The notes under the pieces: generated by a model | Database searches by the model: none | Seen by the model: the letters and a program-made list of their open reading frames with translations, nothing else | Told to the model about the DNA's origin: nothing | Made by a program: the position numbers and the translations under genes | Source of the DNA: a virus | Strand: one strand, 5' to 3' | Length of the DNA: 24,720 bases | Virus record (IMG/VR): IMGVR_UViG_3300035034_002742 | Span: 1-24,720 of that record | Shown here: piece after piece, positions 1 through 22,678 of the stretch | Layout: each line of letters starts with the position of its first letter | How positions within the stretch are numbered: position 1 is the stretch's first letter

Positions 1-3000
1 AATCACCGTTAGCGTCAAACTTTTCTAAATCTTCTTCACTCAAAAGACCTAACATATGTGTTGTTTGAATCCAATTTTCAGATTTTACCATAGGCATTAA
101 AGCTATATCTGTAAAAATTGCATCTAAACCACCTTTCTTTTCCATGTTTACCTCGTCGTAAACATTAATTTCCATAAAGTTTAAATTCTTCATTATACGC
201 TGGTTTCTTTTAAACCTTTGCGTTACACCTTCAATTCCACCTTCAAGACCTTTATCTAAACCCCAATATCTAGCTTCACCCTGAATCCATTTTTTACCAC
301 CTAAATCTTTTATGTTGTGGTACTTTCCGGCTAAGATGTTTCCAATTACATAAAGCCCACCAGTGTTTACATTTGCTTGATAACCTAAAGCATAAAATAA
401 ATTTGCTCTTGTCAATCCACGAACAACACGATCACCTGTCTTTCCTAATACAGAAGTTTGCCTTCTACCTCTTAGAAAATAATCCTTCCATTGCTTTTGA
501 ACATGAGTATTCATATTATTATAACCATGCTGATGATTCCAAGCTAATACACCATCGATTATTCCCTGCATACTTTTCATTCCTTGAACATTATTGTTCC
601 CTTCAACAAATAGCATACTATGAGTGTAATCTACTAAGGCTTTATTTAAATCCATACTAGGTAAAGATTTAGCTTTGATAGACCTGTTTTGAGCAAATCT
701 ATTAATTGCACCAAAACCTAATGCTGTTTCAACTGCAACTTCGCTATATATAATCTTGCTACCGCTTTCATTTAAACCTTGCTTTAGTAGTTTGTTCGCT
801 TTTCTTTTAAGCGCGTTAAACTCTCTTATTTTAGCTAAGTTGTTTTTGTTCCCTTGAGCTTCTATTAAATAGTAGTTTTTTATATGCTTAAATGTAATTA
901 ACTGCTTACCATTACCTTTTCCATTGTCAAAAAACAATTTCACATCATCTAAGTTTTCTTCACTTCGTGAGTTAACCATTAAGCCTAATAAACCTCTGCT
1001 AGATAACATTTCCATGTTTGTCATAGCTGTATGAGGTATATAGTCTTGTTCGGTTTTACCTAATTTCTTAGGCTTAAGTTCTGTAGTAACATTTTTAAAC
1101 ATGTCATAGAACTCTTTTTCAGCTTTACTCACAAATCCTTTTTTAAAATCTTCATTAATTTCCTCTACTGGTCTTAATTTAAAGTCTGTTTGAGGAACAC
1201 CATTTTCATCAATATATTCTTTCCTATTAACTAAATTCCCATAAAGACGTTTGTATATGTCTTCTCTGTTTTTAAATAAAGCATCTTTAATTCTTAATGC
1301 AAAATTTTTAATTCCAGCTATAGATAAATCAGCTTTACCACCATAACCAAGCTTTTCTTCATAAAGTGCATTCGTTACTTTTTCAATTCTCTGATTATAT
1401 TTCTTTTTTTCATTAATAAATTCCTTGTAATTTTTTTCCATCATTCTAATCATACCTTGTGTGGCCGGATGATTTTTAGGAACTGTAGAACCAGTAGTCA
1501 AATAACTATCCATTAAAGAAATATCCTTTCCATCTTCCATAATATCCTTATGAAGCTTTGACTGATCTGCAGCTATGATTTGTGAAATCTGTTTTACAAT
1601 AGGCGTAACTAAAATAGAATAAGCATAGATATCCTCTTTACCATATTTTTTGTAATCTTCTAAAAGCGTGTACAAATCTTTTTCTTCAATATTAGGTAGA
1701 TATTTTTTAGCTAATTCATTAGCTTTTTTTTTCTGCTCTTCATATTCTTTCCACATTCTTATAGCCCGAGATTCACTAAAATTTTTAGGCAGTTGCTTTG
1801 CTCTAGTATATTCATCAAAATTTAAAGGCTTAGTGCTAACAAATTGTTCTTCGTAATAATTTTCATTAGCTCTATAATCCATTCCAGTAGGAATATCTGA
1901 ACCTTGTTCAAAAGCACCATTAGCTAAAGCTTCTTCATAAACTATTGAAGCTTCAACAATAGGATCAAAAGCAGCAGTGTCTTGTTTACCTTCTGGTGGC
2001 ATATATGGATCTGTTACCGAATTATCTTTAATTGTAATAGCACCTATAGAATGATCTTTTCCTAAAATACTATCGTCAACTAAAGTTAAATTCTGTTGAG
2101 CAATATTTATAGCTGATTCCGTTTTTTGCTTAAACGAATTGTTGTCTATAATCTCAGCAGCTTGATCTTTAGTGAATTTAGGAAATTGATAAAGTTTACT
2201 TACATTACTGTTCTTATGTCTTGCTAATACGTATAATGGCTGACCTCTTTGTATTTGATTAATAACAGCAGGATTTTTCATTATTTCGATTAAAACAGCG
2301 TTCTTGTCTTTTAAATTAACACTCTTATCAAAATATGTTTTGATATAAGGGTTACTTCTTTTTTTAGACATTTTAAGAACAATATGTCTTTCTAACAAAC
2401 TTTTAACATGAGGGCTTAATTCATTGTTCTTAGAACTAGAATCTTTCCGGCTTTCATAGTTGATTATACCTTGAGTGTATCTACCAAAAAATGGATACAT
2501 TGATTGACGACTATTCCAGCCATGTTTAGCTAAATCATATATCATTAAGTCTTTTCTTAAGTCTGGTGGTAATTGCTCAAACTCTCTTTGAACAGCTAAC
2601 CTTTCTTCAGGCGTAAAACTGTCATCTAAAAACTTAGTGTCTGCAGAAATATATTTATTATTACCAATAGTGCTATACTTTAAAGCTCTTGAAAATAATA
2701 TACTATTCTCTTTATCAGTAAAGCCTTTTCTAACATCATTAGGATCTTCTTTTATGTTTGATTTTAATTTTTTGAAAAAACTTTCAAGCTTATTATAAAT
2801 ACTTGTGTTGCTATCTGGATCTACTAGATTCTGAACATAATTATCTCCTAAATTATTAAGGCCTAAAAGTCTTGATGTTACAAACCTTTCTAAATCTAGA
2901 GAAATATCTTCAACAGTATCTATAGAAATATTCTCTCCTATCTTACCAACAATATTATCTAAAAGCTCTTTAGTAGATTTTCTATATACAGGGTTAATTA

Positions 3001-6000
3001 TTTTGCTATGTTTCAAAATAACCTCAGCGGTATTCAAGTAATTCAATAAATCAGGATTTTGTTTAAAATCTTCAGTTATTTCTAACGTTTTATCTCTTCT
3101 TTCATTATTCACAACAGAAATATAATCCGCAATTTGTTTTTCTAATACCAGAGGGTTAATGTGAACATTATTATGTCCACTCATAACCTTAGATATTTTC
3201 TGAATATCACTATTCATTTCAGCTAAATACATAAACATTGATAAGATAGCTTTTTTAGAATTTGTAGAATTTACGTTTTCTTCAATTTCGATTGTATCAG
3301 GAAAACGTTTAATATCTCCTAAGTTTAATTCTTTAGCAATATCCTTATTAATAGTAGAACGTTTACGGTAAGAATGAAAAGTACTATTGTTTGTTCTATT
3401 GTGTTTAGTCCAACTTTTAGCTACAGGTGAATTCATTATTTTACCAACTTGTTCTAACGAAAAACCTAAGTTTATTAATATAACAGCTTGTGGTATAGTA
3501 TGCTCATTGATACCAAGTTTATCAGCTAATTGTTGCTTACTATTATCAAGTATGATGTTGGCCAAAATAGCCGATTGTTGGTTTCTTGATTCATTTCCTT
3601 GCATGCCTAGTTCATCTTCAAACTCTTGTTGAAGCTGACCATCAATAGTTATACCTTTACTTGTTTTGATGTTATAAGCAGCTAATAAATTTGTTATTTT
3701 ATGAATATTAAATACAGGGCCAACACTTCTTTTAGCAACCATGGTATTATTATAGTCTTCCATTCTTTGCATAGGACTATAAAACATGTTTTTTGAATTG
3801 TTTTTACTTTGATCAAAAACCTTATTAGCTACTTTTGTAGCATTTTCTTCCCAATCCATAGGCGCATGAGTTTGCTTATGCATATTCTCACTCAACCAAT
3901 ATTCACTCAACAAATCAAAAGCTTCATTCCATGAAGTCATTTCTTTTCCACCTTTAGTTTGAATAAACAAAGCATCACCATCATTATCAGAACCGGTATT
4001 GTAATTAAACTCTTCCGGAACTTGCACTTGATTACCTTCTGTAGTTTCAAATCCTACAACTTCAAAAAATCCTGTAGATGCTGGACCGTGACCAGGTACT
4101 CTAGACATCATTACAGTATCACCTTTAATATGATAACCTGTAATGTTTCCATTAGTGTCTGTGTCGGTTCCTACGAAACGTTTAGCAGCTACTGATGGTA
4201 TTACACCATGACGCTTAGAAGCTTGCGCTACAACGTCTTTTAATAAGCTTTCTAAAGTTTGTCCTTTCGGAGCATAATAATCTTCATCTAATTTTGAATC
4301 GTAAAGTAAATCTCCAGCCTTATAAGGTTTAAAATATTTTCTTGAATAAATTTTACGTTTCTTTTTACCACCTCTAGAATTTGATTTATAATTTGGATCG
4401 TTATAATCTGGATTAAGATGTAATGGTAATATAGCTTCCATTGGACTATAACTACCATCTTCATTTTGAACAGAATCTTTAAGCCTAACATTAGTTTGGG
4501 CACCATCAATATCTGTTCTAAGATTAGGTTTTTGTTGCGAATAACTACCATTAGTTTTAAGCTTATTACCAGCTCTAATAATAGCTTGAGCAAAAGTGTT
4601 TCCAGCTATTTTTGTTAAATAAGGATTTGTAATACTTCCTTTTGCATTAAAAACCATGCGTTGAGCTTGGTCCATATCTTCTTGAGAAAAATGTTTTCCA
4701 ATAAAGTTCTCATAATCTTCCATTTTAGGATTTAACTCTGAAAGTTCTTTAAGCTTATTCTCTAAGTTTTCTGTTTTTTGTTTAGCAATAAGCTTTTGGA
4801 TTTTTAAAACTTTATCAAACTCTCCATTAGCTCTAGCGTTAACCATTGTAGAGTTAACCATTTGAACAGGCGTGTTAGCTTCATAAGTTATTTTATCCAT
4901 GTTTTGTTGTGGACCAAAATTCTCTGACGATAAACCTTGAAAGTTTCCTTTCTTATCATAGTACATACTATCATAATACTCATTAGCTTTATCTATGTTT
5001 TGAGATAATGCTTCAAGTGTAAGCATTTGTCCTTTTTCACTATAGCTAAGGCCGCTATCATTTTTATCTATTAATTTATCAGGAAAAAATGAAGACTTAT
5101 CAGCACTTTCAAACGTTGCTATTAAAACATGGTTTTCAGTACCATCATTTAAAAATTGAGAAGGTTTAGCACCATTGTTTCTGTCAGCAAAGTTTTTAAG
5201 ATACTTATCTTTACGAGAACGCATAATATTATATAAAGGATCACCTTTCCTAACAATAGTAGTAAAGCCTTTGATATAAGCTAATTTGTTTTTAAACATT
5301 TTATTTGGATGATCTTTTTCTACATGACTATTAAGAAACTTAAATCCATTGTTTAAATCCATAACACCTCTTCCCATTATTCGATACTTCTCAGCATCTT
5401 CTTCAAGAATATACATACCACCATCAGTATTAGTAATTCTAGTTCCATCTATAATTTCATCAGCAATAGGTAACATTTCCACTTTAAGATTAGGATTGCC
5501 AGCAGAAAACACAGGAGAACTACTTGCTTTCATTCTCTTAACAGCTGCATCACCTTTTACAGAAGGAATAAACACCTCATGTATATTGTGTCCATTCACA
5601 ATAGCGTTTAAGGCATATTCTTTAACCATTGCTTTACCAGAGTCACTAAGGTTTTTTGTAAAAACTTTTTTATTGTTTTTATCTTTTAGTGTTTTAAACA
5701 ACCATTTTGATTTGTCTAAACTATTAAAGACATCTGCATTTTCTTCTACAAATTTTACGGTTTTATCCATTTCCTCTTTAAGCATATTAAGAAACTCTTG
5801 ACGACTTACATCGCGCATTTGGTTAGTCTTTTTATCCTTAACTTGATTAGCGATTTTTTTATGAATATTATAAATGCTTGTAACAACATTACCATCGTTA
5901 TTTTTGACATTAAGAAAATTTCCTTTTTCATCAAAAACATCACTGTATGAAATTCTCTTCATACTCATATAAAAGTTTCGAGGAGAATCAGACATAGCAC

Positions 6001-9000
6001 CCATACTACCCATGTATTGAGATAGCGCTCGACCCATTCCTGTAGTTCTGGTCTTATTTTGTAATTTACCAGTCGTTTCATTTTTTACCTGATACTTTTC
6101 AGTTTCAAATGTTCTTGAAGAGTTTAAGTAAATTAAAAACTGCTGAATACCTTGCTCTAAATTTGTTGAGTTTTTATAAGTAGTACCATTATCATTTTGC
6201 AAATCTTCAATACCATAATATTGCATAATTTGTGGTGGATATCCTTTTTGAAATCTATCATAAATGTTTTTTAAGAATTGATTAGGTACATAGTTTTTAC
6301 CTTTATCACTTCTTCGGCCATCACTAAAATCATAATTTAAATGAGAATAACGTCTTAGAAATTGTTTTTCAGTTGGTAGCTTTTTAGTGTTTTTATAATT
6401 GTTTCCTAAAAACTCTGTCATACCATCAATTTCTTTAGTCATAAAATTGTTGACTATTCTTGCTGGTTCATAATCACCTGCTGCATTTTTAACTGACGCG
6501 TAAGGTGTGTACTTTCTATTAGTATCAATAAAAGCTTCAACCATAGGTCTAAGATTAGCAAAAAAGACAGGTTGCTTTCCTTGGTTAGTTTTAAACCTTA
6601 AACGTGCGGCTTTTAAAAGCTTTGTTTTTTCAGCTTGTGTTTTAGCATTAATGTATTCTAAACTATTTGCTTTATAACTATTTAGTTGTCCAACAATATC
6701 CATTTTAGTATTAAAAAGTTTATTGCTTTTAACGTATGCAGTAATAAAAGTTTCAATAGGAATATTTAATCCTTTATAAGTGATAATACCGCTTTCCCAA
6801 ACTTTATCTCCTCTAAACTTTGAATTAGTTAGAAAGTCCATGACTTCTATGTAATCACTTTTAGTAGCTTTGTCAGTGTAAATATTTAATATTGCTGTTC
6901 TAAAATCTTCACGTTGTTGTTTAAAAGTGTCATTAACATTATTAAAAGTAAGTGCTTCTCTAGCTTTTTTTAAAATATCTTCTGTATAACCCATTTCTCT
7001 TTGAGAAAATGCAGCTTCATAATTATATTTATCTTGATTTAAAGTGTTTTTAAAACCATTAATATGCTTTGCATTGCTCATAACATAATACATGCTATTA
7101 AGTAATGCTGCTTTTTCTTTTGGCAACACTTTATCCAAATAAGTATTAAACTCTTTTACTTCTTGTAAACTTGAGTTTTGTATTTGATCAATAAAAGTTT
7201 TATTTGAATCAGATTCTCTAGCTAAGTCATAGATTGCTGATTCAAAACTATCTCTATCAAATAACTGGTCAAGTTTTTTATTGACAACTTTATCTTTGTT
7301 TTTCTCTAGTAATTGCTTTCTAAGTTTGCGATTATATATAGCACCAAAACGTCGCATCATTCGACTAGCTTTTCTTATAGCTGTATCAAAGCTTTTATCA
7401 AAAAACTGTTCTCCGTAAGTTTCAGCAGACTCTTCAAGCTCATCTAATATTTCATTCATTTCTACATCTGTAGTCTCTGGTTGATTAATGAACTCTTGAG
7501 ATTTTTGAATGTCTTTAGCAATTTGATCTTTGCGTTTAGATGTTGCTTCGTTAATTTCGTCAACACGCATATCAACACCATAAGAATTAATCTTAATTCC
7601 TTTAGTAGCATTTTTAAAAGCGTTAATAAAAAAAGACTTGTTATCGGTAGTAGATTTTTTAGCTTCTATATCTGTGCCTTGAAGCATAGTTAAAAATGCT
7701 AAATCATTTTCTACCTCTTTACCTTTCTTACGTAACATGCCCCACCACATCTTCACGTCCTTCTGACGCTTCATTTCTCTTGGCTCAAAGGTTTTATCCA
7801 TTGATTCAGCTAAAGGTCCTTCTAACCTCTTTACAAAGGCTTCTTCTAAAATGTGTTTTTGCTCTGCAATAGGTTCAACTTTAAAAGTTCCATTTTTAAT
7901 AAGCTCTTCAAAAACCTGGTTAGATTGCTCTTGAGTATAGCCCTCTTTAGAAAGCATATTTGTAAAACTTTTTTTAGGCTTAGTAAGACCAGTATTTGTG
8001 TCTTGATATATTACCATATCAGGATATAAACCTGTTATCTCACTAATTAGATCTTTGTCTTTTTTAATTTCATTAAGCATTTCTTGAGTCTCAGGTTCAT
8101 CATGACCTAACTGAAAATAGATATGACTCATTTCATGCCAAAAAACACGATCTTGTTCCCAAACTTTTTCATCTATATAAATAGTTCCGGCTAAAGTATG
8201 TCCTACACCTCTTGAACCTACAGCTTCAAATAAGTTTTTAACTGAATAAGCTCTAGGAGTAATTTTAAATGTTCCATCTTCATTTCTTTCACCAGAAGGA
8301 AACATTTTTTTTAGTCGATGATTGACGGTAGCCATTTCCTCAACCTCGCTAGGTACATATATGTTTCTTGCAGTAAAGCTATTTAAAAAATCATCTACCT
8401 CATCTTGAGTAACACGTTCAGTTTTTACATTACTAATAAACTGCATACGCGCTACGGTCTGATTCTTTTGTGCAAGTAGCATTGCGTTTAATTCAGAAAT
8501 ACCAGATAAAGGATCATCTTTTTTAACTCGTTTATCACTGCCTTCTGTAGTTCCACCAATAATACGTTGAGTTTCTTCAAGATCTTCTTTGCTAACTGCT
8601 TGAGCTTGTTGAGCAAGAATTTCTTTCATTCTTTGAGCTTTAACCTCATCAATGTTTTGGCCTTTCTCAATAGGACTAGAGTAATAACTCTTTTCAGCAT
8701 CATTCATTTGATCAAATGAAATCTCATCTTCTATACCATCTTTTTGAAAATCTTTTTTAGTCTTTTCATTTCTAACAACACTTTCCGGTTCAGCGTTAGT
8801 TTTGTTGTTTTTATCGATTTTTAATTTTGCAGACAAGTTTACTATTCTTCCACGAATACGACTCTTGTTTTGATTTCTTATAGCAGTTTCTCTATTACTT
8901 AATTCTTTTTCATCAAACACTTTTTGAGCAATAGAATTAAGCCTATCGTTAGTTACTGTTTCATCTTCATCAAAAGACTTCCATTCATCATCTGAAATAT

Positions 9001-11572
9001 CATCTTTGATTTTAGTGTTAACACTACGTTCTTCTATTTTTTTATTAATAGATTCAGTTTCTAGTTCTTCAGCAATTCTTTCAGCTTCGGTTTGTTCCTT
9101 TTCAGCTTTTTCTTCTTTTTGAGTTTGAGTTTCTTTAGTAGATTCATTAGCCATTACTTCATCGTTATCTCTAGCGACCTCATCAGCTTCTTCTGGAGTT
9201 TTAATATTTTTAGCAACAATATTTCCATCACTACTAATTACTTCAAAAGTGCCATCTTTAGCTTTTTGTACAGAATGAGTTATTTCTTTAGCAGTATCTT
9301 TTTGTGTGGGTTGATTACCAACTTCTTCTTCAGATAATTCTTCTTCTTGCTTTTTTTTAAAGAGAGAATCATAAAGATTATTGAACATACCAGAGCTTTT
9401 TTCTTTCCCTCTAGTAAGAGTTTCTTTAAGCTTTTCACCAGTAGTAGTCTCTTTTAAATTACCTTGTTGTGCTTCTTTTTCACTAGCACCTTTATTAGTG
9501 TACATTTGATACTCTTCAGTAGAAAGACCACCAATAAACATTTCATTACCCCACTTGTTTAATTTAGTGTGAATTTCATAAGGCTTTGCTAATTTACCAA
9601 GCATTAAGTTTTCTTGATTTTGCATAGCTGCCGCTTGAGCAAGTCCTAAAGCGTTTATCTTTTGGTTAAACTCTTCTTTGTATTCTTGAATACGTTTATT
9701 TTTAACATCATCATTAGCTTTTAAACCTTGAATAACTTTTACGTTTTCAGCATAAGTTTCTTGAGTTTCTTTGATTTCTTCATCTAACCAAAGTTGATCT
9801 GCTTTATAACGCATTAAAGCATCGGTACCTTTTACATTAAGTTTGCCAGCTTGTTTTTTAGCTTCTTGAAACTCTTTAAACATCGTCATGTAAGTTTCTC
9901 TTTCTTTGTCGCTAATTACAGTTTCATTGTTATTTAAATAATCAAGAAATTGTTCTGCAGTTTCTTGAGAATCTCCATCGCGCTCACCAGCTATTTCTCC
10001 AAGCTGTCTTCTTATATGTAAACGCTCATAACTATTTGCTAACTTACTACCTTGCTTTTTAAATTGATTTTGAAGATTTGCAGTACGGTTGTATATTTTA
10101 TAGCTTTCATCAGCTTTTTTATTCATAAGAGACTGAATATTAAAAGCACCACCACCAATAGCTCCCATTGCAAAAGAAAGAACTTTAGTAGATTCATTTT
10201 CTTTAGACTTATAGAAATCCCAAAAGCCACCAGGATCTAAAACTGAATCATCACCTTCACCTGTAACAGAAGCAACAGCTTTTTTGCTTGCCCACTCTTC
10301 AAATGTTTCTTGAAATGTTTCTTCAATACCTTCTGGAACAGCTTTTTTAGCTAGTCTAAAAGGTGCTTTTAAAATAGGAGACACATCATATCTAAATTTC
10401 TTTTTAGATATTTCTAAAAGCTCTTTACCTTTTCTGTAATTAGCATTTTTAGTAAAATTTTTAAATGTTCTAGACTGCTTACCAAAAGTTAATCCGTAAG
10501 AAAGCATATTAATAGGCGCGTACATTAAATTATTCGTCATTGTACCAGCAGCCATTTCAGCAACTTCTTCATCACTAAATTGCATCATTTGATTACCTTC
10601 CTCATCTAGTATAGGATTACCATCTTTATCTACTGCCGGTTTATTTGAATATGTTTGAACAATTTGTGAAGCATTAAGAGCACCTGAAAGAATGTTACCA
10701 GTAAGACCACCACCAATAGCTCCAATAATATTATCAGCTCTAGCTGTCAATTTACCCGTTTCTGTAATTGCTTTACCAATACCCTTACCTGTTCCTAAAA
10801 CACCATCTAAAGCTCCTGCAGTAACTTTTTTAGCAGTACCTAAACCAGCTTTGGTTGCACCTTTTAAAAGTTGTTTAGCCCCTTGTCTAGCAACAGCACT
10901 ACCACCTTTAGATATTAAAATGAATTCTACTAATTGAGGTACCATTTCAGCCGCATGAATAGACCAAAACTTAGGATCACCCATAGATGCCCAAGTTAAA
11001 TTTTGAGCTTCCATAGCTTCAGGCATATAAGTTTTAAATCTCTCTTCTATTTCGCCACCTTCTTTTTGTAACCATCTTGATACAGCATTACCATCTACAT
11101 CATCTTCAGAAAAAACAGCAGTAAGACCCTGCATAATATCACCAGTTCCTTTTACAATATGTTTTCCAACACCACGTAAAACACTATTTGCAGATTCTTC
11201 TAAAAAACTTCTATTAGTATATTCAGGACTCCAAGTCTCAGCTTCGGCTTCTAGGTTTTTAAAATTCATTCCACCTAAAACCATATCAGAATACATACTA
11301 GCTTTTCTGTTTTTTTGAACTTGTGAGTTTCTTTCTATAGTTGGATCATTATTATCAGGAATATTAAAAGGTTCTTCATAAAGACCTTCATCATTATTTA
11401 ACTGTTCATCTGTTAAAGAAATTTCATTAGGATTCTGTTCTTGTTTTTCTTTAGCTTCAAGTTCTGCTGCATAACTACTTAAAGTATTGTCTCCTAATTT
11501 TTCTTCGTTTTGGCTATTTGGCTTATCACTAGCAGTCATAGCATTCTGAATTTCTTTAAATAATTCTCCCAT
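1..11572 (-). CDS. Giant virion RNA polymerase-like polyprotein with zincin motif (C-terminus beyond window)
   Basis: The frame is open from ATG 11572-11570 to the left edge, at least 3857 codons with no stop. The ATG lies one base after the stop of the upstream gene, behind an A-rich leader. Seen in order: hydrophobic and Gly/Ala-rich stretches at about residues 207-310 and 460-478; an EGIEETFQE segment near 412; a highly charged, Glu/Lys-rich linker at about 735-1020; HEMSH at 1146-1150; a DGGMY motif at 2050-2054 followed by a lysine cluster (K2091-K2101); SRVP at 2490-2493; GSDNDGD at 2527-2533; and a DNSK...IMNSP block at 2676-2715. The R-x-P plus DxDGD pair matches the catalytic double-psi barrel of multisubunit and crAss-like phage RNAPs, such as Cellulophaga phage phi14:2 gp66 (about 2180 aa). 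This protein is much longer. It contains no cysteine. Inferred role: packaged polymerase, ejected with the DNA to transcribe early genes. The RNAP call is strong; the packaging role is inferred from the family and gene position. Confidence 0.85.
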   Translation of the reverse strand, partial: MGELFKEIQNAMTASDKPNSQNEEKLGDNTLSSYAAELEAKEKQEQNPNEISLTDEQLNNDEGLYEEPFNIPDNNDPTIERNSQVQKNRKASMYSDMVLGGMNFKNLEAEAETWSPEYTNRSFLEESANSVLRGVGKHIVKGTGDIMQGLTAVFSEDDVDGNAVSRWLQKEGGEIEERFKTYMPEAMEAQNLTWASMGDPKFWSIHAAEMVPQLVEFILISKGGSAVARQGAKQLLKGATKAGLGTAKKVTAGALDGVLGTGKGIGKAITETGKLTARADNIIGAIGGGLTGNILSGALNASQIVQTYSNKPAVDKDGNPILDEEGNQMMQFSDEEVAEMAAGTMTNNLMYAPINMLSYGLTFGKQSRTFKNFTKNANYRKGKELLEISKKKFRYDVSPILKAPFRLAKKAVPEGIEETFQETFEEWASKKAVASVTGEGDDSVLDPGGFWDFYKSKENESTKVLSFAMGAIGGGAFNIQSLMNKKADESYKIYNRTANLQNQFKKQGSKLANSYERLHIRRQLGEIAGERDGDSQETAEQFLDYLNNNETVISDKERETYMTMFKEFQEAKKQAGKLNVKGTDALMRYKADQLWLDEEIKETQETYAENVKVIQGLKANDDVKNKRIQEYKEEFNQKINALGLAQAAAMQNQENLMLGKLAKPYEIHTKLNKWGNEMFIGGLSTEEYQMYTNKGASEKEAQQGNLKETTTGEKLKETLTRGKEKSSGMFNNLYDSLFKKKQEEELSEEEVGNQPTQKDTAKEITHSVQKAKDGTFEVISSDGNIVAKNIKTPEEADEVARDNDEVMANESTKETQTQKEEKAEKEQTEAERIAEELETESINKKIEERSVNTKIKDDISDDEWKSFDEDETVTNDRLNSIAQKVFDEKELSNRETAIRNQNKSRIRGRIVNLSAKLKIDKNNKTNAEPESVVRNEKTKKDFQKDGIEDEISFDQMNDAEKSYYSSPIEKGQNIDEVKAQRMKEILAQQAQAVSKEDLEETQRIIGGTTEGSDKRVKKDDPLSGISELNAMLLAQKNQTVARMQFISNVKTERVTQDEVDDFLNSFTARNIYVPSEVEEMATVNHRLKKMFPSGERNEDGTFKITPRAYSVKNLFEAVGSRGVGHTLAGTIYIDEKVWEQDRVFWHEMSHIYFQLGHDEPETQEMLNEIKKDKDLISEITGLYPDMVIYQDTNTGLTKPKKSFTNMLSKEGYTQEQSNQVFEELIKNGTFKVEPIAEQKHILEEAFVKRLEGPLAESMDKTFEPREMKRQKDVKMWWGMLRKKGKEVENDLAFLTMLQGTDIEAKKSTTDNKSFFINAFKNATKGIKINSYGVDMRVDEINEATSKRKDQIAKDIQKSQEFINQPETTDVEMNEILDELEESAETYGEQFFDKSFDTAIRKASRMMRRFGAIYNRKLRKQLLEKNKDKVVNKKLDQLFDRDSFESAIYDLARESDSNKTFIDQIQNSSLQEVKEFNTYLDKVLPKEKAALLNSMYYVMSNAKHINGFKNTLNQDKYNYEAAFSQREMGYTEDILKKAREALTFNNVNDTFKQQREDFRTAILNIYTDKATKSDYIEVMDFLTNSKFRGDKVWESGIITYKGLNIPIETFITAYVKSNKLFNTKMDIVGQLNSYKANSLEYINAKTQAEKTKLLKAARLRFKTNQGKQPVFFANLRPMVEAFIDTNRKYTPYASVKNAAGDYEPARIVNNFMTKEIDGMTEFLGNNYKNTKKLPTEKQFLRRYSHLNYDFSDGRRSDKGKNYVPNQFLKNIYDRFQKGYPPQIMQYYGIEDLQNDNGTTYKNSTNLEQGIQQFLIYLNSSRTFETEKYQVKNETTGKLQNKTRTTGMGRALSQYMGSMGAMSDSPRNFYMSMKRISYSDVFDEKGNFLNVKNNDGNVVTSIYNIHKKIANQVKDKKTNQMRDVSRQEFLNMLKEEMDKTVKFVEENADVFNSLDKSKWLFKTLKDKNNKKVFTKNLSDSGKAMVKEYALNAIVNGHNIHEVFIPSVKGDAAVKRMKASSSPVFSAGNPNLKVEMLPIADEIIDGTRITNTDGGMYILEEDAEKYRIMGRGVMDLNNGFKFLNSHVEKDHPNKMFKNKLAYIKGFTTIVRKGDPLYNIMRSRKDKYLKNFADRNNGAKPSQFLNDGTENHVLIATFESADKSSFFPDKLIDKNDSGLSYSEKGQMLTLEALSQNIDKANEYYDSMYYDKKGNFQGLSSENFGPQQNMDKITYEANTPVQMVNSTMVNARANGEFDKVLKIQKLIAKQKTENLENKLKELSELNPKMEDYENFIGKHFSQEDMDQAQRMVFNAKGSITNPYLTKIAGNTFAQAIIRAGNKLKTNGSYSQQKPNLRTDIDGAQTNVRLKDSVQNEDGSYSPMEAILPLHLNPDYNDPNYKSNSRGGKKKRKIYSRKYFKPYKAGDLLYDSKLDEDYYAPKGQTLESLLKDVVAQASKRHGVIPSVAAKRFVGTDTDTNGNITGYHIKGDTVMMSRVPGHGPASTGFFEVVGFETTEGNQVQVPEEFNYNTGSDNDGDALFIQTKGGKEMTSWNEAFDLLSEYWLSENMHKQTHAPMDWEENATKVANKVFDQSKNNSKNMFYSPMQRMEDYNNTMVAKRSVGPVFNIHKITNLLAAYNIKTSKGITIDGQLQQEFEDELGMQGNESRNQQSAILANIILDNSKQQLADKLGINEHTIPQAVILINLGFSLEQVGKIMNSPVAKSWTKHNRTNNSTFHSYRKRSTINKDIAKELNLGDIKRFPDTIEIEENVNSTNSKKAILSMFMYLAEMNSDIQKISKVMSGHNNVHINPLVLEKQIADYISVVNNERRDKTLEITEDFKQNPDLLNYLNTAEVILKHSKIINPVYRKSTKELLDNIVGKIGENISIDTVEDISLDLERFVTSRLLGLNNLGDNYVQNLVDPDSNTSIYNKLESFFKKLKSNIKEDPNDVRKGFTDKENSILFSRALKYSTIGNNKYISADTKFLDDSFTPEERLAVQREFEQLPPDLRKDLMIYDLAKHGWNSRQSMYPFFGRYTQGIINYESRKDSSSKNNELSPHVKSLLERHIVLKMSKKRSNPYIKTYFDKSVNLKDKNAVLIEIMKNPAVINQIQRGQPLYVLARHKNSNVSKLYQFPKFTKDQAAEIIDNNSFKQKTESAINIAQQNLTLVDDSILGKDHSIGAITIKDNSVTDPYMPPEGKQDTAAFDPIVEASIVYEEALANGAFEQGSDIPTGMDYRANENYYEEQFVSTKPLNFDEYTRAKQLPKNFSESRAIRMWKEYEEQKKKANELAKKYLPNIEEKDLYTLLEDYKKYGKEDIYAYSILVTPIVKQISQIIAADQSKLHKDIMEDGKDISLMDSYLTTGSTVPKNHPATQGMIRMMEKNYKEFINEKKKYNQRIEKVTNALYEEKLGYGGKADLSIAGIKNFALRIKDALFKNREDIYKRLYGNLVNRKEYIDENGVPQTDFKLRPVEEINEDFKKGFVSKAEKEFYDMFKNVTTELKPKKLGKTEQDYIPHTAMTNMEMLSSRGLLGLMVNSRSEENLDDVKLFFDNGKGNGKQLITFKHIKNYYLIEAQGNKNNLAKIREFNALKRKANKLLKQGLNESGSKIIYSEVAVETALGFGAINRFAQNRSIKAKSLPSMDLNKALVDYTHSMLFVEGNNNVQGMKSMQGIIDGVLAWNHQHGYNNMNTHVQKQWKDYFLRGRRQTSVLGKTGDRVVRGLTRANLFYALGYQANVNTGGLYVIGNILAGKYHNIKDLGGKKWIQGEARYWGLDKGLEGGIEGVTQRFKRNQRIMKNLNFMEINVYDEVNMEKKGGLDAIFTDIALMPMVKSENWIQTTHMLGLLSEEDLEKFDANGD
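3974..3988 (-). other. RNAP metal-A motif DNDGD (catalytic double-psi barrel)
   Basis: This encodes residues 2529-2533 of the giant protein, Asp-Asn-Asp-Gly-Asp, preceded by Gly-Ser. In cellular RNAP beta' the equivalent NADFDGD holds the catalytic Mg2+ through three aspartates, and crAss-like phage polymerases carry DFDGD or DFDVD forms. About 36 residues upstream is SRVPGHGPAS followed by FEVVGFE, corresponding to the R-x-P strand that precedes the metal loop in this fold. All three aspartates are present. The aromatic residue usual after the first Asp is Asn here. Confidence 0.85.
5270..5425 (-). other. Candidate first double-psi barrel of the RNAP (lysine-containing)
   Basis: Residues 2050-2101 of the giant protein run from a TDGGMY motif through EKYRIMGRG to a lysine-rich strand (K2091, K2094, K2096, K2101). 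Two-barrel RNAPs have one barrel contributing active-site lysines, which lies before the metal-binding barrel in single-chain phage enzymes. A TDGxxY start followed by a Lys-containing strand is what I recall of crAss-like homologues. The distance to the DNDGD motif is about 480 residues. This assignment rests on motif shape only and is much weaker than the metal-A call. Confidence 0.4.
8102..8137 (-). other. HExxH zinc-metallopeptidase (zincin) motif
   Basis: This encodes residues 1146-1157 of the giant protein, HEMSHIYFQLGH, followed by DEPE. HExxH supplies two zinc-binding histidines and the catalytic glutamate in zincins. The third ligand could be His1157 or one of the acidic residues just after it. 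A preceding segment with a TIYIDE strand and VFWHE gives the hydrophobic strand-helix context expected of a real active site rather than a chance match. Inferred role: self-processing of the giant chain, cleavage of a virion protein, or attack on a host protein. The target cannot be told from sequence. Confidence 0.7.
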
Positions 11573-11573
11573 T

Positions 11574-13586
11574 CTAATTGTTTTTATTTTGTTTAGTAAT
11601 AGCTAACATATTTTTCCATTCTTGAGCTAAAGAATGTATTTCTTTATATTCTTCTGAACTTTCTTGATATCCGTTTTTTTCTATAGCTTTTTCAAACCAA
11701 GTATCTATAATTTCATCCTCACCTTTATCAAATGATTTAACACTTTCATCAATAAATTCTTCTCCAGCTTTACTCATAAAACCTGTAAACAAATTATTTT
11801 TTGTTAAGCTTTGGATTTGCTCTGGTTCAATTGGACCTGCTTGAGATTGTAACATTCCTGAAGCTACATAAAACGATTTTATTAAATCATTTCTGTTTTC
11901 AGACCCACCACTTCCGGGTTTGTAATATTGATAAGACTCGTGAGTATAGCCTGGAGATTCTTCAACAACACCTCCTTGTTCTCTATTAAAAGCATCAACT
12001 TGTTTATCTTCAAAATCAGACTGCGCATCAATATAATTATTAACCGCCATGTTTTGTTTATCTTGATTAACAATACTCGTTAAATCATCAGAAGCTCCTA
12101 ATCCTTCTTCTAACATTTTTCTTTGCTCAAGGTTTTCTAAATTAATTTCTTTATAAACAGTTTGACCACTATCACTTTTTAATGCTAATAAAACTGTCAT
12201 ATTGGCTTGACTTTTTTCTTCATTGCCCATATAAGTTCCATTAATTTTTGTAGTTTCTTTTTGATCAATTGTGCCATCGTTATTATAAGCATCCATCATT
12301 AAAACTTCTTCACCTACTGTTCCTTGTTTATCGTTTGTAACTTTAGTTTTAAAACCAGAAACAAGTCCTAAAACTTTATAACGTTCAGGATTTTCAGTAC
12401 GAACTTTATTTAGTCTAGAACCATCGGCATCAAAGAATGTAGCCCCTTCTGGTTTGTATTCTTCAATGTAACCATCTTTAATATCTTTTTGAAGCGCTAG
12501 TTTAGCAATGTTATTAGTATTAGAAGCCATTATTTGCCTAGCTTCTTTCACCCCATAATTAGATTGATTAAGATTTATTAAAGCGTCAATACCTGTTGTA
12601 AGAGGATTGTAGCTATCTGCGTCTGTCATTTTCTGACCATAAAAGCCTGGGTTAACATTGCTAAACATTTTTTTGAAAAGTGGATTGTCTTTTGTAATTC
12701 CTTCAATATAACCACCAGCATTTTGACCTTCAATAATTTGTTCTGGCGTTAATCCTTTTTCTTGATTGTAAAAAGTATTAGTCAAAGTGCCTATTAAACT
12801 AACTTTATTACTTTTCTTTTTTTGATCAGCACTCCATCTTCTATTTTTTTCGCGCTGAATAGCCATTTGTTGATTAGAGCCCATTCCACCATAACCCATT
12901 TGATACATGAATTTAGTAAGTCTTTGTTGGTCTGCAGGATTTTCTAAATTAATATCAGGTGCGTTAGGATTAACCATTTTGTAGTTAGCCATAATTCTAA
13001 GCATATTACCATTGTAATTAGAAATTTTATCAATAGGAATTTCTTGACCAAACTCAAATTGATTAGCTGGTGGTATTTCTACTCTTGCCATTAAACCGCT
13101 ATAAGTAATTTCTCCGCCATCTTCATTATTATTGTATGCTTCCATACTGGCAACATCATTAGGGTTAACCAAATCTCTTGTAGCTGGACTTGACATAGCT
13201 TGAATAAGCTTAGCGTTGTTTTCCTGATTAGTTAAATATCTAGAGTACTCTTCAGATTGCATTAAACCATTCTTAATCTCATTGATTTTAGAAAGACCAC
13301 CATTCTTCATAAAGTCAGCTTTACTAACTCCAGAACTAGAAATAGCTTCTTTAATTTGTTTTTGGTAATCTAAAAATTTACGATTTACACGTTCTCTATC
13401 TTTACCTAATAATGATTTTGATTGTTCAAAGAAATGCTCATAAACTTGTTGCTCTTGTTGTTGAGCAGCTAAATTTTCTTGTTCAGATCTTTCCTGTCTA
13501 GCATCTAAACGCTCAAGAGCATTTAATTCCATTGCTTGACTTTCTCTATCTTGTGTCGATTGTGTTAATCCTAATAATGGGTTCAT
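11574..13586 (-). CDS. Putative virion cargo/ejection protein, 670 aa
   Basis: I do not recognise a named family. The first 110 residues are Gln/Glu/Arg-rich and predicted mostly helical, with likely coiled coil around 25-85. The remainder is mixed and soluble-looking, with several Asn/Gln-rich stretches and no signal peptide or clear membrane segment. There is no cysteine in 670 residues. The gene lies between the 903-aa transglycosylase-bearing protein (3-base gap) and the giant polymerase (1-base gap), so the three are almost certainly co-translated. In crAss-like phages the genes between the muzzle protein and the giant RNAP encode proteins packed inside capsid and tail and released into the host; that role is inferred here from position and composition. 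Start is ATG 13586; stop is TAG. Confidence 0.65.
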   Translation of the reverse strand: MNPLLGLTQSTQDRESQAMELNALERLDARQERSEQENLAAQQQEQQVYEHFFEQSKSLLGKDRERVNRKFLDYQKQIKEAISSSGVSKADFMKNGGLSKINEIKNGLMQSEEYSRYLTNQENNAKLIQAMSSPATRDLVNPNDVASMEAYNNNEDGGEITYSGLMARVEIPPANQFEFGQEIPIDKISNYNGNMLRIMANYKMVNPNAPDINLENPADQQRLTKFMYQMGYGGMGSNQQMAIQREKNRRWSADQKKKSNKVSLIGTLTNTFYNQEKGLTPEQIIEGQNAGGYIEGITKDNPLFKKMFSNVNPGFYGQKMTDADSYNPLTTGIDALINLNQSNYGVKEARQIMASNTNNIAKLALQKDIKDGYIEEYKPEGATFFDADGSRLNKVRTENPERYKVLGLVSGFKTKVTNDKQGTVGEEVLMMDAYNNDGTIDQKETTKINGTYMGNEEKSQANMTVLLALKSDSGQTVYKEINLENLEQRKMLEEGLGASDDLTSIVNQDKQNMAVNNYIDAQSDFEDKQVDAFNREQGGVVEESPGYTHESYQYYKPGSGGSENRNDLIKSFYVASGMLQSQAGPIEPEQIQSLTKNNLFTGFMSKAGEEFIDESVKSFDKGEDEIIDTWFEKAIEKNGYQESSEEYKEIHSLAQEWKNMLAITKQNKNN

Positions 13587-13589
13587 ATC

Positions 13590-16301
13590 TTATTGTTCTG
13601 AATAATAATCATTTCTTTCTTTCATAGTTAAACCATCAGGGTTTTGCTCATAATATTCTGTGTCCTCTAATGGTTTATTACCAAGTATCAAAGCCGTGTT
13701 TTTTTGTGGTAAAGTAACTGGTGAAACTGAATTGTTTGGTATGTTTGATACTGGTAAAGTAACTGGTGAAACTTTACCTGGTAAAGGTGCTAATCCATTA
13801 CTCGGCATTTTAACTTCTTCTTGTGATGGTGTAGAAGCTATTTCACCTTGAGTCTTATCAATTTGCATTGGGTCAGGCACAGTATTATTTCCTTTTTTAT
13901 CTTTAGGTGGATCAAACAATTTCACATAATCACCTTCAACTTTACCTATGTTATCAGCATTAAATTGTGCAACATCTAAATTAGGGTTTTGACTTAGTGT
14001 ATCAATAAACTTTAAAACGTCACCGCTATTTTTATTGTTTTCATAAAATAAATTAGCAGCATCTTTTTGTTCTTGAGATAAGTTTTGATAAGCTTTACTT
14101 GACTTGTGTAAAACTTTAGCTTCATTAAGTTTTGTGGATTTATTTTTCTCCCAATAACTTTTAGTACCCGGTATAGTTCCACTACCATCATCAACCATTT
14201 TTGGATCGTAACCAAAAACATTCTGCATCATATTACTTCTAAGCATATCATACGCCGAACCCGGTGCTTGAGCTCTAGCAGTTTTAATACCATCAATTAA
14301 TTTAGTAAATCCAGCATTAGCTAAATCTTCTCCATCTTTACGACGTTTTACAGCTTCTTCATATTTAATACCATGATTAGCTATGTCTTTATTAATGTTT
14401 ACACCATCCACATACTGTATAGCTTCACCATACATTTGCATAGCACGTTCTTTAGCTTGTATGTCTGCTAATTGAACTGCTAAGTTACCTTTGTTCTTTT
14501 GCGCGTCTAAACGACCTACATTTCCTAATATAGCTGCGCGACTCCCCGCCGCATTATTTTTTAATTGTTCGAACCCTGCCGAGTAAGCTTCTGTTAAAGC
14601 ATTAGTCATTTGAGCTTCTTCCGCAGGACTTAAACCTTGCTCTTTACGTTCAGCTAATTCTGCTACAAAGTTTTTAACCATGTTAGAGACTTCTTCTGTA
14701 CGCATAGGTATAATTGTGCCATCAGCTTGATTAAGTCCAGCTAAACCTAAAACAAGTCCACTAGCGGCATCTATTGGTAACTGTGATTTAGTTTTATTAT
14801 AAGATTGTTTCCCATCTTGAACATCTGCTAATGTCATTGCATTATTCAGAAACTCATTAACACCATCTGTTTTATTAGATGTTTTTGTATTATTTTCTTC
14901 TGCAAGAACTACAGCTTCTTCACTTTTAGTTTTATTAGGATCAGTTTCTTTACTTGTAGTTTCTTTATCTGGATCTATAATAGTTACTTCATTCTTTTCA
15001 GGCTTAAAATGCGTTGTATCTATAATAGGTTTAAAAGGTTCAAATTTAGTTTCCCCAAATTTTTCTTTTGGTTTAATATCTAAACCAACAAACTCACCAT
15101 CAGTATTAGGATTAGAAACATTTAAATAAATATTTTTACCTGTAATATCGCGATACTCTTTATCAGGTAATTCTAAAAATTTAACCGCATTTTTACCTGT
15201 TATTGTAAGTTTGTTCTTAGTTCTCCATACTTTCTTATCTTTATCATAAACAGAAGTAGCATTACCATCTTTATCATAATTAGAATACTTTCCAAAAACT
15301 CCACCTGTGTCTTTTAATCCTAAACCAATTTTATCATAAATTTCTTTAGGTAGTTTAGACTTTAATTTTGCTTTTAATTTTTTAATGTATTCAGGTGTTC
15401 CATTTATATCTAATTGAAAACTACCATCATCATTAACTTTAAAATCACTATTGTCATTTTGTAAAACATTAGAAAGATATCCTCCCGGTGTTTCACCATT
15501 TTGAAAAGCTTTAAATGCTTCTTGGTTTTTATCAAACTTTATTTTCTTTGCTTCATTAATAATTTGAGCATTTCCATTATTACTCATTTCTTGAAAAAGC
15601 TCTGCTCTTTTAGTTTCTTTTTGGGCAGAATTTAATTCTTGATTATCATCAATAGCTTTATTTCTTTTGTCAAATTCAGCAATAACTTCTTCTTTAGTTT
15701 GTTCTGGAATTTCAATAACTTCATTAATATCAGATTTAGGAATTAAAGGATTTGAATTTTGAATAGTTTTTAAAGTTTTATTCATGTATTCAAGAGAACT
15801 CATGTTTACTCTTTCTCCTTTTTCATTAAAATATTCTTTATCAAAATCTCCTGTTCTAATTTGATATGAAGCACCGCTATTTTTTTTCTCTTTAGAATCT
15901 CCATGTCCTTTAAAATGAATTAAAGCACCTACACCTTCAATTGGAATATTTTTAGGATTAGGACCTTCATAAATCTTTTTAGCTTGAGGCCATAAATAGT
16001 TGTCAGAATAATGCGTAAAATAAGCATCTTGGAATTCCGGATATTTTTTAAAATCTTCTAAAGTAAATTTTGAAACATCTTCTTTTATTTTAAATATTTC
16101 TTTGTTTTTTCTAGCATAAGTTCTGATACCATCAACACCTTTCATGTCATTATCTAGCCAAACTTCTGTAAACTGATAAGTTCCTGCAGCAGTACTATTC
16201 GAGTTTTGAGCACTAGAATCATTATTACTTTCTGTTTTACCTAACGCTCTTTTCATTTGAAGAGTAAAACGTTTTTTTAAATTATTTTCATCTACTAGCA
16301 T
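13590..16301 (-). CDS. Putative cargo/ejection protein with N-terminal lytic-transglycosylase-like domain, 903 aa
   Basis: Residues about 15-140 look like an SLT/lysozyme-fold muramidase: TESNND around a candidate catalytic Glu24, then STAAGTYQF (36-44), matching the usual ES...S.AxGxxQF arrangement, and ALIHFKGHG (126-134), resembling the AHxxG helix late in that fold. Such domains on virion proteins open peptidoglycan during DNA entry. The rest is low-complexity and helical: a Lys/Asp-rich middle (about 200-500), an Ala-rich helical stretch (about 500-700) and a Pro-rich tail with a repeated VSPVTLP segment. There is no cysteine, signal peptide or membrane segment, so delivery with the virion is more likely than secretion. 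ATG 16301 sits behind an A-rich leader (AAAAAAAGATATT). The muramidase call is motif-based; the cargo role comes from context. Confidence 0.65.
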   Translation of the reverse strand: MLVDENNLKKRFTLQMKRALGKTESNNDSSAQNSNSTAAGTYQFTEVWLDNDMKGVDGIRTYARKNKEIFKIKEDVSKFTLEDFKKYPEFQDAYFTHYSDNYLWPQAKKIYEGPNPKNIPIEGVGALIHFKGHGDSKEKKNSGASYQIRTGDFDKEYFNEKGERVNMSSLEYMNKTLKTIQNSNPLIPKSDINEVIEIPEQTKEEVIAEFDKRNKAIDDNQELNSAQKETKRAELFQEMSNNGNAQIINEAKKIKFDKNQEAFKAFQNGETPGGYLSNVLQNDNSDFKVNDDGSFQLDINGTPEYIKKLKAKLKSKLPKEIYDKIGLGLKDTGGVFGKYSNYDKDGNATSVYDKDKKVWRTKNKLTITGKNAVKFLELPDKEYRDITGKNIYLNVSNPNTDGEFVGLDIKPKEKFGETKFEPFKPIIDTTHFKPEKNEVTIIDPDKETTSKETDPNKTKSEEAVVLAEENNTKTSNKTDGVNEFLNNAMTLADVQDGKQSYNKTKSQLPIDAASGLVLGLAGLNQADGTIIPMRTEEVSNMVKNFVAELAERKEQGLSPAEEAQMTNALTEAYSAGFEQLKNNAAGSRAAILGNVGRLDAQKNKGNLAVQLADIQAKERAMQMYGEAIQYVDGVNINKDIANHGIKYEEAVKRRKDGEDLANAGFTKLIDGIKTARAQAPGSAYDMLRSNMMQNVFGYDPKMVDDGSGTIPGTKSYWEKNKSTKLNEAKVLHKSSKAYQNLSQEQKDAANLFYENNKNSGDVLKFIDTLSQNPNLDVAQFNADNIGKVEGDYVKLFDPPKDKKGNNTVPDPMQIDKTQGEIASTPSQEEVKMPSNGLAPLPGKVSPVTLPVSNIPNNSVSPVTLPQKNTALILGNKPLEDTEYYEQNPDGLTMKERNDYYSEQ
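13707..13773. repeat. Two 22-bp direct repeats encoding VSPVTLP units
   Basis: The sequence tggtaaagtaactggtgaaa followed by ct occurs at 13707-13728 and again at 13752-13773, a 45-base period, identical over 22 bases. On the minus strand each copy encodes SPVTLP near the C-terminus of the 903-aa protein, inside a Pro-rich linker. It looks like a recent in-frame duplication of a linker unit rather than a regulatory repeat. Confidence 0.85.
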
Positions 16302-16312
16302 AATATCTTTTT

Positions 16313-17002
16313 TTATGAAGGAATTCCTAATTGTCTTTTTCTTAATGCTTTTAAATCAGCAATTCTAGCTTGACCTTCTTGCATCATATATTCCTGGTCA
16401 AGTTTAGCTTTCTTTTCAGCAGTCTCTTTACCACCTCTTTCTAATTGTTTTTTACCAAATTTTTTCATAGCAGCTTTTTCACCAAAAAAAGTTGTTCCTA
16501 TTTCAGCTAAAGCCATTCCGGCACCAACAAGAGGACCTCCCATTGCAGATCCTTTAGCAAAACCACTAGCAGCTTTTGCAGCGTAACCTAAAGCACCTGT
16601 ATTGTTAGGTTGAAAAGCTCCATCTGTTTTTCTAAGATTTGTAGCTAAACCACTAACTGCATCTAAAGCACCAGTAGCAATTCCAGAAACTTTAGAGACA
16701 TCAAAAGACTTATTAGGTATGTCAGCTAAGTTTTCTGTTTTAACTTCGTTTTTAGCATCTTCTAATCCAGAAGTAACAGATTTACTTAGTCCTGATGATT
16801 TTAATCCTGTATTAGCAATAGTTTGAAATTCTCTACCATTATTAGAAGCGTTAACAGCTCCTTGTTGTGGTGCTAATCCTATATTAGATGTAATACTTTC
16901 TAAATTACTAACAGCATTTTTATTAATCATTGACTGATTATCCATTCTGTTATTGTTCTGATCGGCTTCAAGCCTTTTAATCATTTCTTCAAATGCGTCC
17001 AT
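16313..17002 (-). CDS. Small Gly/Ala-rich putative internal virion protein, 229 aa
   Basis: No named family is recognised. The N-terminal 100 residues are polar and Asn/Ser-rich. Residues about 104-122 and 130-175 are Gly/Ala-rich with small-residue helices (for example GYAAKAASGFAKGSAMGG), able to form amphipathic or membrane-inserting helices like those of short-tailed phage ejection proteins. The C-terminal 55 residues are strongly basic and helical (EKAAMKKFGKKQLERGGKE). There is no cysteine. It begins one base after the stop of the muzzle-like gene and ends 11 bases before the 903-aa gene. Proposed role: a pore-forming or scaffold component of the cargo, inferred from composition and position. 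A minor structural protein is the main alternative. Start ATG 17002, stop TAA. Confidence 0.6.
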   Translation of the reverse strand: MDAFEEMIKRLEADQNNNRMDNQSMINKNAVSNLESITSNIGLAPQQGAVNASNNGREFQTIANTGLKSSGLSKSVTSGLEDAKNEVKTENLADIPNKSFDVSKVSGIATGALDAVSGLATNLRKTDGAFQPNNTGALGYAAKAASGFAKGSAMGGPLVGAGMALAEIGTTFFGEKAAMKKFGKKQLERGGKETAEKKAKLDQEYMMQEGQARIADLKALRKRQLGIPS

Positions 17003-21679: not shown

Positions 21680-22678
21680 TTATGGGTAATTTGTATTTAA
21701 AGTTAAAACATTATTTGTTAATGCTACAAGGTTAGTGTTGCCATTAACGTTTAATACAGTTAATGTTACACCTCCTGTTTTTAATTCTACAGCATCTTCA
21801 ACTATAAGATTTATCAAATCAAATTGAGCTTTACCTTTTGAATCTGTTACAGTTGTTATATTGAAAGTTTCATTAGCAAATTTTTCTAACGTACCAAAAG
21901 AACCTTGAATTAACACTTTATTATAAGTGTTTAAATTTAAAAAAGGTGAGTTTATATTTACTTCAATTTCAACTTCTGCATTCGCGTATGCGTTTTGAAT
22001 TTCAATTATAAAAGATTGTTGTATGGTATTGTAAGTATCTGGAACAGCTCCGTAACTATCAGTGTATTGAATTTCGGATTCATTAATATTAAAAATCTCA
22101 GCTAATGTATCTACTAATATTTGATGAGAATATTTTGAATTCGAAATTTCTGTTTTATTTCCTACATTAAAATTTAAACTTGAATAAGGTCGACCACCAC
22201 CAGTTTCATTTGGTTCAAAAAAAACTTGATTTAAAACTGCAGTTGGTATTCTTGTGCCAGGATAAATAATATTTCCATTTAATTTCCAATTATTAATTCC
22301 GACAATTGTATCAATTTCTATAAATTCTACATTATCATCAATAGCTGTAGTATCTATTAAATTAAACGTTTCATTATTTAATAAAACAGTATTGTCGTTT
22401 CCTCCAGTAGGTGTTTCATCAAAAGCATTAACTCTTTTTAAAAATTGTAAAACACCTTTACTAACATTACTTTCAACATTGTTAACAGAATCAATTAATT
22501 GCCATTCAAAATAATTTATAATACTATAATCACTAAAGACTATTGCTCTTTCAAAAGACAAAAGGTTTTGATCAGCAATAGGATAAAGTTGATTTAAAAC
22601 AATAGGCGCACCATCATAAAAACCATTAACACTGATTGGATAAAGATATCCTGTTATTTTAAAATGAGTTATTGCCAT
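21680..22678 (-). CDS. Beta-rich putative structural protein of unknown function, 332 aa
   Basis: I do not recognise this protein. It is rich in Asn, Thr, Ile and Val, with alternating strands throughout, and has no signal peptide, membrane segment or cysteine. The C-terminal part (about 230-332) has repeated strand-turn units such as VEIEVNINSPFLNLN and GGVTLTVLNVNGNTN that suggest an Ig-like or jelly-roll fold, as in appendage, fibre or decoration proteins. The ATG at 22678 is chosen over an in-frame TTG at 22702, because the ATG follows an A-tract leader (ten A, then CACA) and gives a plausible first strand (AITHFKITGYLYP). Its first 20 bases overlap the end of the lipoprotein gene. It lies between lysis and tail genes, so a tail-associated role is plausible but unproven. 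Confidence 0.6.
   Translation of the reverse strand: MAITHFKITGYLYPISVNGFYDGAPIVLNQLYPIADQNLLSFERAIVFSDYSIINYFEWQLIDSVNNVESNVSKGVLQFLKRVNAFDETPTGGNDNTVLLNNETFNLIDTTAIDDNVEFIEIDTIVGINNWKLNGNIIYPGTRIPTAVLNQVFFEPNETGGGRPYSSLNFNVGNKTEISNSKYSHQILVDTLAEIFNINESEIQYTDSYGAVPDTYNTIQQSFIIEIQNAYANAEVEIEVNINSPFLNLNTYNKVLIQGSFGTLEKFANETFNITTVTDSKGKAQFDLINLIVEDAVELKTGGVTLTVLNVNGNTNLVALTNNVLTLNTNYP

Follow-up and report, generated by a model that had tools for sequence, protein, structure and literature searches.

Crass-like phages appear likely to inject their three-part virion RNA polymerase as a train of chains, A-B-C, coupled by disulfides, with gene fusions repeatedly swapping these couplers for peptide bonds. 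Where the parts are encoded by separate ORFs, a single cysteine lies close to the ends which face a neighbouring part; there is no such cysteine at the outer ends and no excess of cysteine at fused boundaries. The giant ORF described here would be the fully fused, coupler-free end state of this arrangement. It is located in the stretch of DNA that was analysed (IMG/VR record IMGVR_UViG_3300035034_002742, 24,720 nucleotides, referred to as the window), in which it forms part of a block of four ORFs that encode no cysteine. We consider it probable that a crass-like podovirus injects the proteins of this block as its cargo, made up of a giant virion RNA polymerase together with channel or cargo proteins, and that A, B and C, where separate, are joined by interchain disulfides with their other cysteines purged.

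Table 1. Features of the window, with positions given as window coordinates (aa, amino acids).
Feature	Position	Strand	Remarks
Giant virion RNA polymerase, a fusion of parts A, B and C (predicted)	2..11572	-	3857 aa seen, open at the window edge, ~170 more expected; 0 Cys
Catalytic motif DNDGD, residues 2529-2533 of the giant (putative)	3974..3988	-	Context RxP...G...GSDxDxD
HEMSH, residues 1146-1150 of the giant, zincin-like HExxH motif	8123..8137	-	phiCrAss001 gp47 has HEAFH in the corresponding region
670-aa cargo protein, C2-like position (predicted)	11574..13586	-	0 Cys; L201 homologue (30% identity) directly upstream of the L201 giant
903-aa cargo protein, C1-like position (predicted)	13590..16301	-	0 Cys; assigned from its position alone; nothing matched in the databases
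Gly/Ala-rich protein of 229 aa, located between muzzle and cargo	16313..17002	-	0 Cys; no database match
Crassvirus muzzle protein, 1554 aa	17004..21668	-	11 Cys; PF25731, E 3.4e-53; phrog_28748
340-aa ORF on the far side of the muzzle gene	21680..22702		0 Cys
Probable lysis cassette, upstream of the muzzle gene	22659..24586	-
Lipoprotein-like protein	22659..23210	-	Lipobox LTSC; C-terminal membrane helix
CHAP-like endolysin	23207..23632	-
Membrane protein	23635..23994	-
Membrane protein	23987..24586	-

Judged from its sequence, the window belongs to a Crassvirales-like phage, as its muzzle ORF has the PF25731 match listed in Table 1, and this ORF also gave tblastn matches to 42 crass phages. 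The order of the genes (muzzle - 229 - 903 - 670 - giant) agrees with that described for crassviruses, which is muzzle, cargo C1, cargo C2 and the RNA polymerase parts (PMC10172136). Capsid, portal, terminase and tail-ring genes were not found within the 24,720-base record. By analogy with phi14:2 and phiCrAss001 (PMC7886860, PMC10172136), the 229-, 903- and 670-aa proteins and the giant would be packaged and ejected, and the giant would transcribe the early genes. The muzzle protein is not ejected and serves as an internal control. On its sequence, the 229-aa protein is possibly a membrane-channel component. By eye the N-terminus of the 903-aa protein looked lysozyme-like, but Pfam and PHROGs gave this no support and the idea was dropped.

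The four minus-strand cargo ORFs (3857, 670, 903 and 229 aa) contain no Cys in 5,659 codons, as had been reported in a first-pass annotation made from the sequence. Its estimate of what should be expected also held, as the rate in the adjacent muzzle ORF predicts ~40 Cys in the cargo (probability of none, 3.5e-18; at 1% Cys, 2e-25). The two other frames of the DNA encoding the giant contain 67 and 185 Cys codons; base composition therefore does not explain the absence, which is set at the level of the protein. Trp, His and Met are all still present in the cargo. With 0 Cys over 5,659 aa, a length for which many would be predicted, the block is a candidate for the class of Cys-free ejected phage proteins. 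The same annotation had placed the boundary exactly between muzzle and cargo; the contrast between the two is real across 18 complete related genomes, but the claim was slightly overstated as the 340-aa ORF (P 0.09, too short to carry weight) and a 119-aa ORF of the window also lack Cys.

To identify the giant, the polymerase parts were defined from 17 Crassvirales genomes and Flavobacterium phage Fpv1, with A corresponding to phiCrAss001 gp47, B to gp50, which carries the GSDFDxDK motif, and C to gp49. The giant matched part B (HMM E 2.8e-7; hhalign in local mode, 94.4%), its head matched part A (hhalign 95.7%, E 9e-9, with relatives included), and the tail of its clade matched part C (hhalign 97.7%, E 1.6e-12; single relatives 5e-12 to 2e-8), the last match lying mainly in the tails of L199, L201 and L205, beyond the window edge. 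As the head matches A, the tail C, and the B match includes the catalytic context, the giant is read as A, B and C fused. Its catalytic motif reads GSDNDGDALF, and the R, P, S, G, G, D, D and D of the context are invariant between the giant and six crass-like polymerases. It thus has sequence features of a crass-like virion RNA polymerase, namely part B with the D-x-D-x-D context together with parts A and C. No sign of an N4-type (T7-like) single-subunit polymerase was found, as the giant matched no PDB chain at E 0.1 and had no match in Pfam. An AlphaFold2 model of the catalytic region (pLDDT 47.5) was too poor for a fold search.

Searches of 50,697 phage records by tblastn gave no match to the giant or to the 903- and 670-aa proteins, and neither the muzzle nor the catalytic region of the giant retrieved a relative when used as a single-protein query against viral contigs. 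Four relatives (L199, L201, L205 and L214) were found with a DNA pattern for GSDNDGDA. The other matches to this pattern, mostly of the PGTDNDGDAL type, lie in shorter proteins that do not resemble the giant and were not used further. L201 shares 40% identity with the giant over 3,888 aa and has a complete C-terminal end, which runs for 170 residues past the point aligned with the window edge to a stop codon and contains no Cys. A Cys in the remaining C-terminus of the giant had been named beforehand as an observation that would count against the Cys-free reading; L201, L205 and L199 have none down to the stop codon.

The first-pass annotation missed where the leftover Cys of the relatives are located, which is at the junctions between polymerase parts. 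Part ends were compared in 80 environmental loci, fetched out of over 500 that matched one scan, and in complete genomes, giving 92 non-redundant sources once near-copies had been removed (85% dedupe). Junction ends were taken as the C-terminal end of A, both ends of B and the N-terminal end of C, and outer ends as the N-terminal end of A and the C-terminal end of C. Of the 185 junction ends, 179 had a Cys no more than 15 residues from the terminus, compared to 0 of 117 outer ends (Fisher 2.5e-77), a contrast that is partly definitional because fused ORFs end in outer ends, the independent evidence being the lack of Cys excess at fused boundaries. Among 421 control ORFs, a terminal Cys was present at 26 N-terminal (6%) and 52 C-terminal ends (12%). 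Three of the six misses are due to ORF starts called too far upstream: the annotated starts in cr85 and cr11 put the Cys at position 3, which disposes of the apparent lack there, and in crAss002 an internal MSC start would bring the Cys near the end. The other three belong to one phage group with longer tails, where a single Cys lies 16, 29 or 50 residues from the end.

Exactly one Cys was present per junction end (66/66 and 73/73), at a distance from the end that varies from 1 to 11, and the tails around it are otherwise very divergent (for example NTIC, KNCKGK, KFICNL and RKEC). Separate B proteins had exactly two Cys, one per end, in 16 of 22 complete proteins (~2,290 aa), and separate A proteins exactly one in 14 of 16. 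For phiCrAss001 the sole Cys of gp47 is at 2339 of 2341 and that of gp49 at 5, and gp50 (2412 aa) has three, at 5, at 2404 and at one internal position; for phi14:2 the positions are 1797 of 1797 in A, 3 and 2179 of 2180 in B, and 3 in C. The A and B genes are on opposite strands and kilobases apart in phiCrAss001, cr85, DAC15 and cr116, and so an explanation of the junction Cys at the DNA level fails. Both codons are used (TGT 40, TGC 6). Lone terminal Cys were also seen in two cargo proteins of Intestiviridae, at 856 of 857 in Carjivirus (L086-L090, 50140-52713) and at 550 of 557 in crAss002 (L076-L080, 40547-42220); each is the only Cys of its protein, and neither has an evident partner at the neighbouring end.

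The part arrangements found were A|B|C, AB|C, A|BC and ABC, and fused ORFs retain Cys at the junction that is still open. The single Cys is fourth from the end in the 4522-aa AB fusion of L123, at position 4400 in that of Fpv1 (4401 aa) and at position 7 in the BC fusion of L159 (3525 aa), and the ABC fusions of L190 (5005 aa) and L201 (3945 aa) have none. The fused A/B zone has no excess of Cys (0.147% vs 0.148% in the rest), and the fused B/C zone has 2 Cys in 5,400 aa. In the phylogeny of part B, six independent contrasts for fusion to C and four well-supported ones for fusion to A were all in the expected direction. The complete absence of Cys in the giant of the window would therefore reflect the fusion of all three parts, which makes couplers unnecessary, as well as the general purge.

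The polymerase ORFs of cr116 (L045-L050, 39997-47520 and 48361-50862) and cr108 (L102-L107, 49505-58408 and 58699-61095) are interrupted at or inside the catalytic GSDFDxDK. The first part in cr116 reads GSDFDKSYVEIK; in cr108 the first part ends in AGSD and the second begins with MYDIDK. These sequences suggest that an intron or intein has split the active-site codons, and L142, L146 and L157 perhaps have the same interruption.

The pattern of the junction Cys, its conservation and its behaviour on fusion were directly observed, and from them we infer the following course of events. Cargo chains would cross the envelope after leaving the head via the tail in an at least partly unfolded state. 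Unwanted thiols could give rise to wrong disulfides in the virion or the periplasm, and this would be why selection has purged Cys, a pattern that is itself plain. In separate chains one Cys is kept near each end that faces a neighbour and none at the outer ends, and each facing pair would form an interchain disulfide; such bonds are proposed because the facing single Cys vanish once the chains share a peptide bond. The product, A-SS-B-SS-C, would be a single thread (~6,000 residues) drawn through the narrow tail in a fixed order and at a 1:1:1 ratio, with internal Cys purged so that only the couplers can form. These bonds may then be reduced in the cytoplasm. On gene fusion, a peptide bond would take the place of the disulfide, and the Cys are lost. 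Many interchain disulfides have been documented between the virion proteins of phiCrAss001, in the tail barrel, the fibre hubs and the portal-vertex dimer (PMC10172136), and the particle is therefore oxidised. Counting against the coupler reading, only segments of gp45 have been resolved among the cargo chains of the crassvirus structure.

The purge itself extends beyond the window. Cys counted across the 18 complete related genomes came to 291 in 26,085 aa of muzzle (1.12%) and 25 in 25,646 aa of cargo between muzzle and RNA polymerase (0.10%), which upholds the contrast drawn from the window, with the qualification that cargo Cys is low and not zero. The interior of A, B and C contains 0 to 0.33% Cys, compared to ~1% in the remaining ORFs of these genomes; it is 4 to 60 times poorer across 17 genomes, and empty in phi14:2. 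Gut crassvirus polymerases nonetheless have 0.02-0.33% internal Cys, which counts against the coupler reading. Internal polymerase Cys number 0 and 1 in the aerobic-host phages phi14:2 and Fpv1 (~5,300-5,900 aa) and 3 to 24 in most gut phages, with phiCrAss001 (gut, 1 internal Cys) as an exception to this split, and are highest in the TAG-recoded gut phages cr6 and cr7. The constraint on Cys may be relaxed in anaerobes. Where C1-like cargo has Cys, they occur as pairs 8 or 9 residues apart (phiCrAss001 gp45, 390 and 398; cr111 742-aa cargo, 224 and 232; DAC15 832-aa cargo, 211 and 219, 273 and 281; phi14:2 gp080, 369 and 378), a spacing suggestive of disulfide loops formed locally within one chain.

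Selection against Cys in ejected proteins, as first suggested for this window, recurs in unrelated ejection systems. N4 gp50, gp51 and gp52 have 0 Cys in 4,294 aa, so that the annotation's statement on a Cys-free N4 virion polymerase was right; T7 gp15 and gp16 have 0 in 2,065 aa and gp14 has 1 in 196 (1 in 2,261 aa for the three), P22 gp7, gp16 and gp20 have 0 in 1,309 aa, and the tape-RNAP of P23-45 has 0 in 5,002 aa. The virion RNA polymerase of phiKZ is a counter-example to this, and to the coupler reading, with 5 Cys in the 1451 aa of gp178 and 2 in the 490 aa of gp180. The contractile tail of phiKZ should shield its cargo from the periplasm. The 2237-aa tail-associated endolysin of this phage, gp181 (L218, 11334-18047), has 1 Cys and is poorer in Cys than the polymerase subunits. 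The T7 and P22 scaffolds and the N4 major capsid protein are short, are not ejected and are also Cys-free. The absence of Cys accordingly fails as a clean signature of ejection, given the phiKZ subunits with Cys, the many short non-ejected proteins without it and the internal Cys of gut crassvirus RNA polymerases (up to 0.33%).

The reason offered for the absence, passage through the tail and across an oxidising periplasm, has a published precedent and is not new, since fact and reason alike are in print for N4-like phages: the lack of Cys in their virion polymerases was explained by tail passage and a disulfide-forming periplasm (PMC3715699, 2010), as it was in PMC3915230, citing Kazmierczak et al., and in PMC4837373. 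A Cys-free ejected polymerase and the general reason for it were thus already known from N4, and what is new is the junction-Cys pattern across the order. The key structural paper on the phi14:2 RNA polymerase is reportedly that of Drobysheva et al. 2021. Outside that paper, in which a remark is possible, no mention of junction or terminal Cys was found in PMC10172136, in PMC7886860 or by full-text search.

The terminal Cys could be functional without pairing with each other, as anchors for a third partner, in metal binding or in homodimers, with the purge then being the general one for ejected proteins. The evidence is one of sequence, a lone Cys on a flexible tail could serve any of these purposes, and terminal Cys without an obvious partner do exist, as in the Carjivirus cargo protein. 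This explanation is nevertheless unlikely, as Cys are present on both sides of every open junction and never at outer ends, are absent where precisely the two parts in question have been fused, and at one per side are too few for a usual zinc site. It is similarly doubtful that Cys were purged for fast threading and refolding, or for packing beside DNA, and not because of oxidation. In its favour, Cys was removed while Trp, His and Met stayed, although sequences cannot separate oxidation from misfolding, and Bacteroides hosts are anaerobes; however, it is Cys on which oxidation acts, phiKZ, with a cargo presumably shielded by its tail, is not Cys-free, and the aerobe phages have fewer internal Cys than most gut phages, phiCrAss001 excepted.

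Two further explanations have very little probability. Some short virion proteins, scaffolds and capsid proteins among them, lack Cys, and the absence might simply follow from composition or from a general poverty of Cys in virion proteins; this is hardly compatible with Cys codons in the other frames of the same DNA, with the difference between the large muzzle and the adjacent cargo, or with the depletion of the polymerase interiors relative to other ORFs. Terminal Cys codons adjoin start and stop codons, and could for this reason belong to a signal, in the DNA or for translation, that marks gene junctions, and not be the result of amino-acid selection, but this is highly improbable given the facing ends on opposite strands in four phages, the use of both codons and the variable distance from the end.

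Disulfide coupling of separate parts, with its loss on fusion, remains our preferred reading. Several known systems come close to that of the window. The virion RNA polymerase and cargo of Crassvirales (phi14:2 gp66; phiCrAss001 gp45, gp46, gp47, gp49 and gp50) resemble those of the window in their muzzle - cargo - polymerase order, D-x-D-x-D context, zincin motif in part A and very low Cys. The polymerase of the window differs in having all three parts in one chain, DNDGD in place of DFDxD, and no Cys, whereas known Crassvirales have separate or partly fused parts, with Cys at the junctions that remain open. P23-45 gp96, a two-barrel polymerase of 5,002 aa (PMC10770324), is like the giant in being a Cys-free virion RNA polymerase of great size, but it is fused to a tape measure protein and belongs to a thermophile siphovirus whose other proteins are also Cys-poor. 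N4 gp50 is likewise a giant ejected RNA polymerase without Cys, as are its partners gp51 and gp52, but it is a T7-like single-subunit polymerase, unrelated in sequence to the giant and always one chain. The internal podovirus proteins of T7 (gp14, gp15 and gp16) and P22 (gp7, gp16 and gp20) are released into the envelope and share the scarcity of Cys; they include no polymerase, and no sequence relation was found between them and the 229-, 903- and 670-aa proteins of the window.

Crass-like phages are the most abundant group of phages in the human gut. For the passage of megadalton protein cargo through a phage tail channel, current models invoke partial unfolding, and to our knowledge they do not address how the order and stoichiometry of the parts would be maintained. 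If the coupled train is true, it would represent a natural design rule for threading multi-part machines across an envelope, in which terminal disulfides act as couplers and all other thiols are purged. Scarcity of Cys in proteins above ~1,000 aa would then be a usable, though fallible, flag for ejected proteins, and terminal Cys would flag those ejected proteins that travel together.
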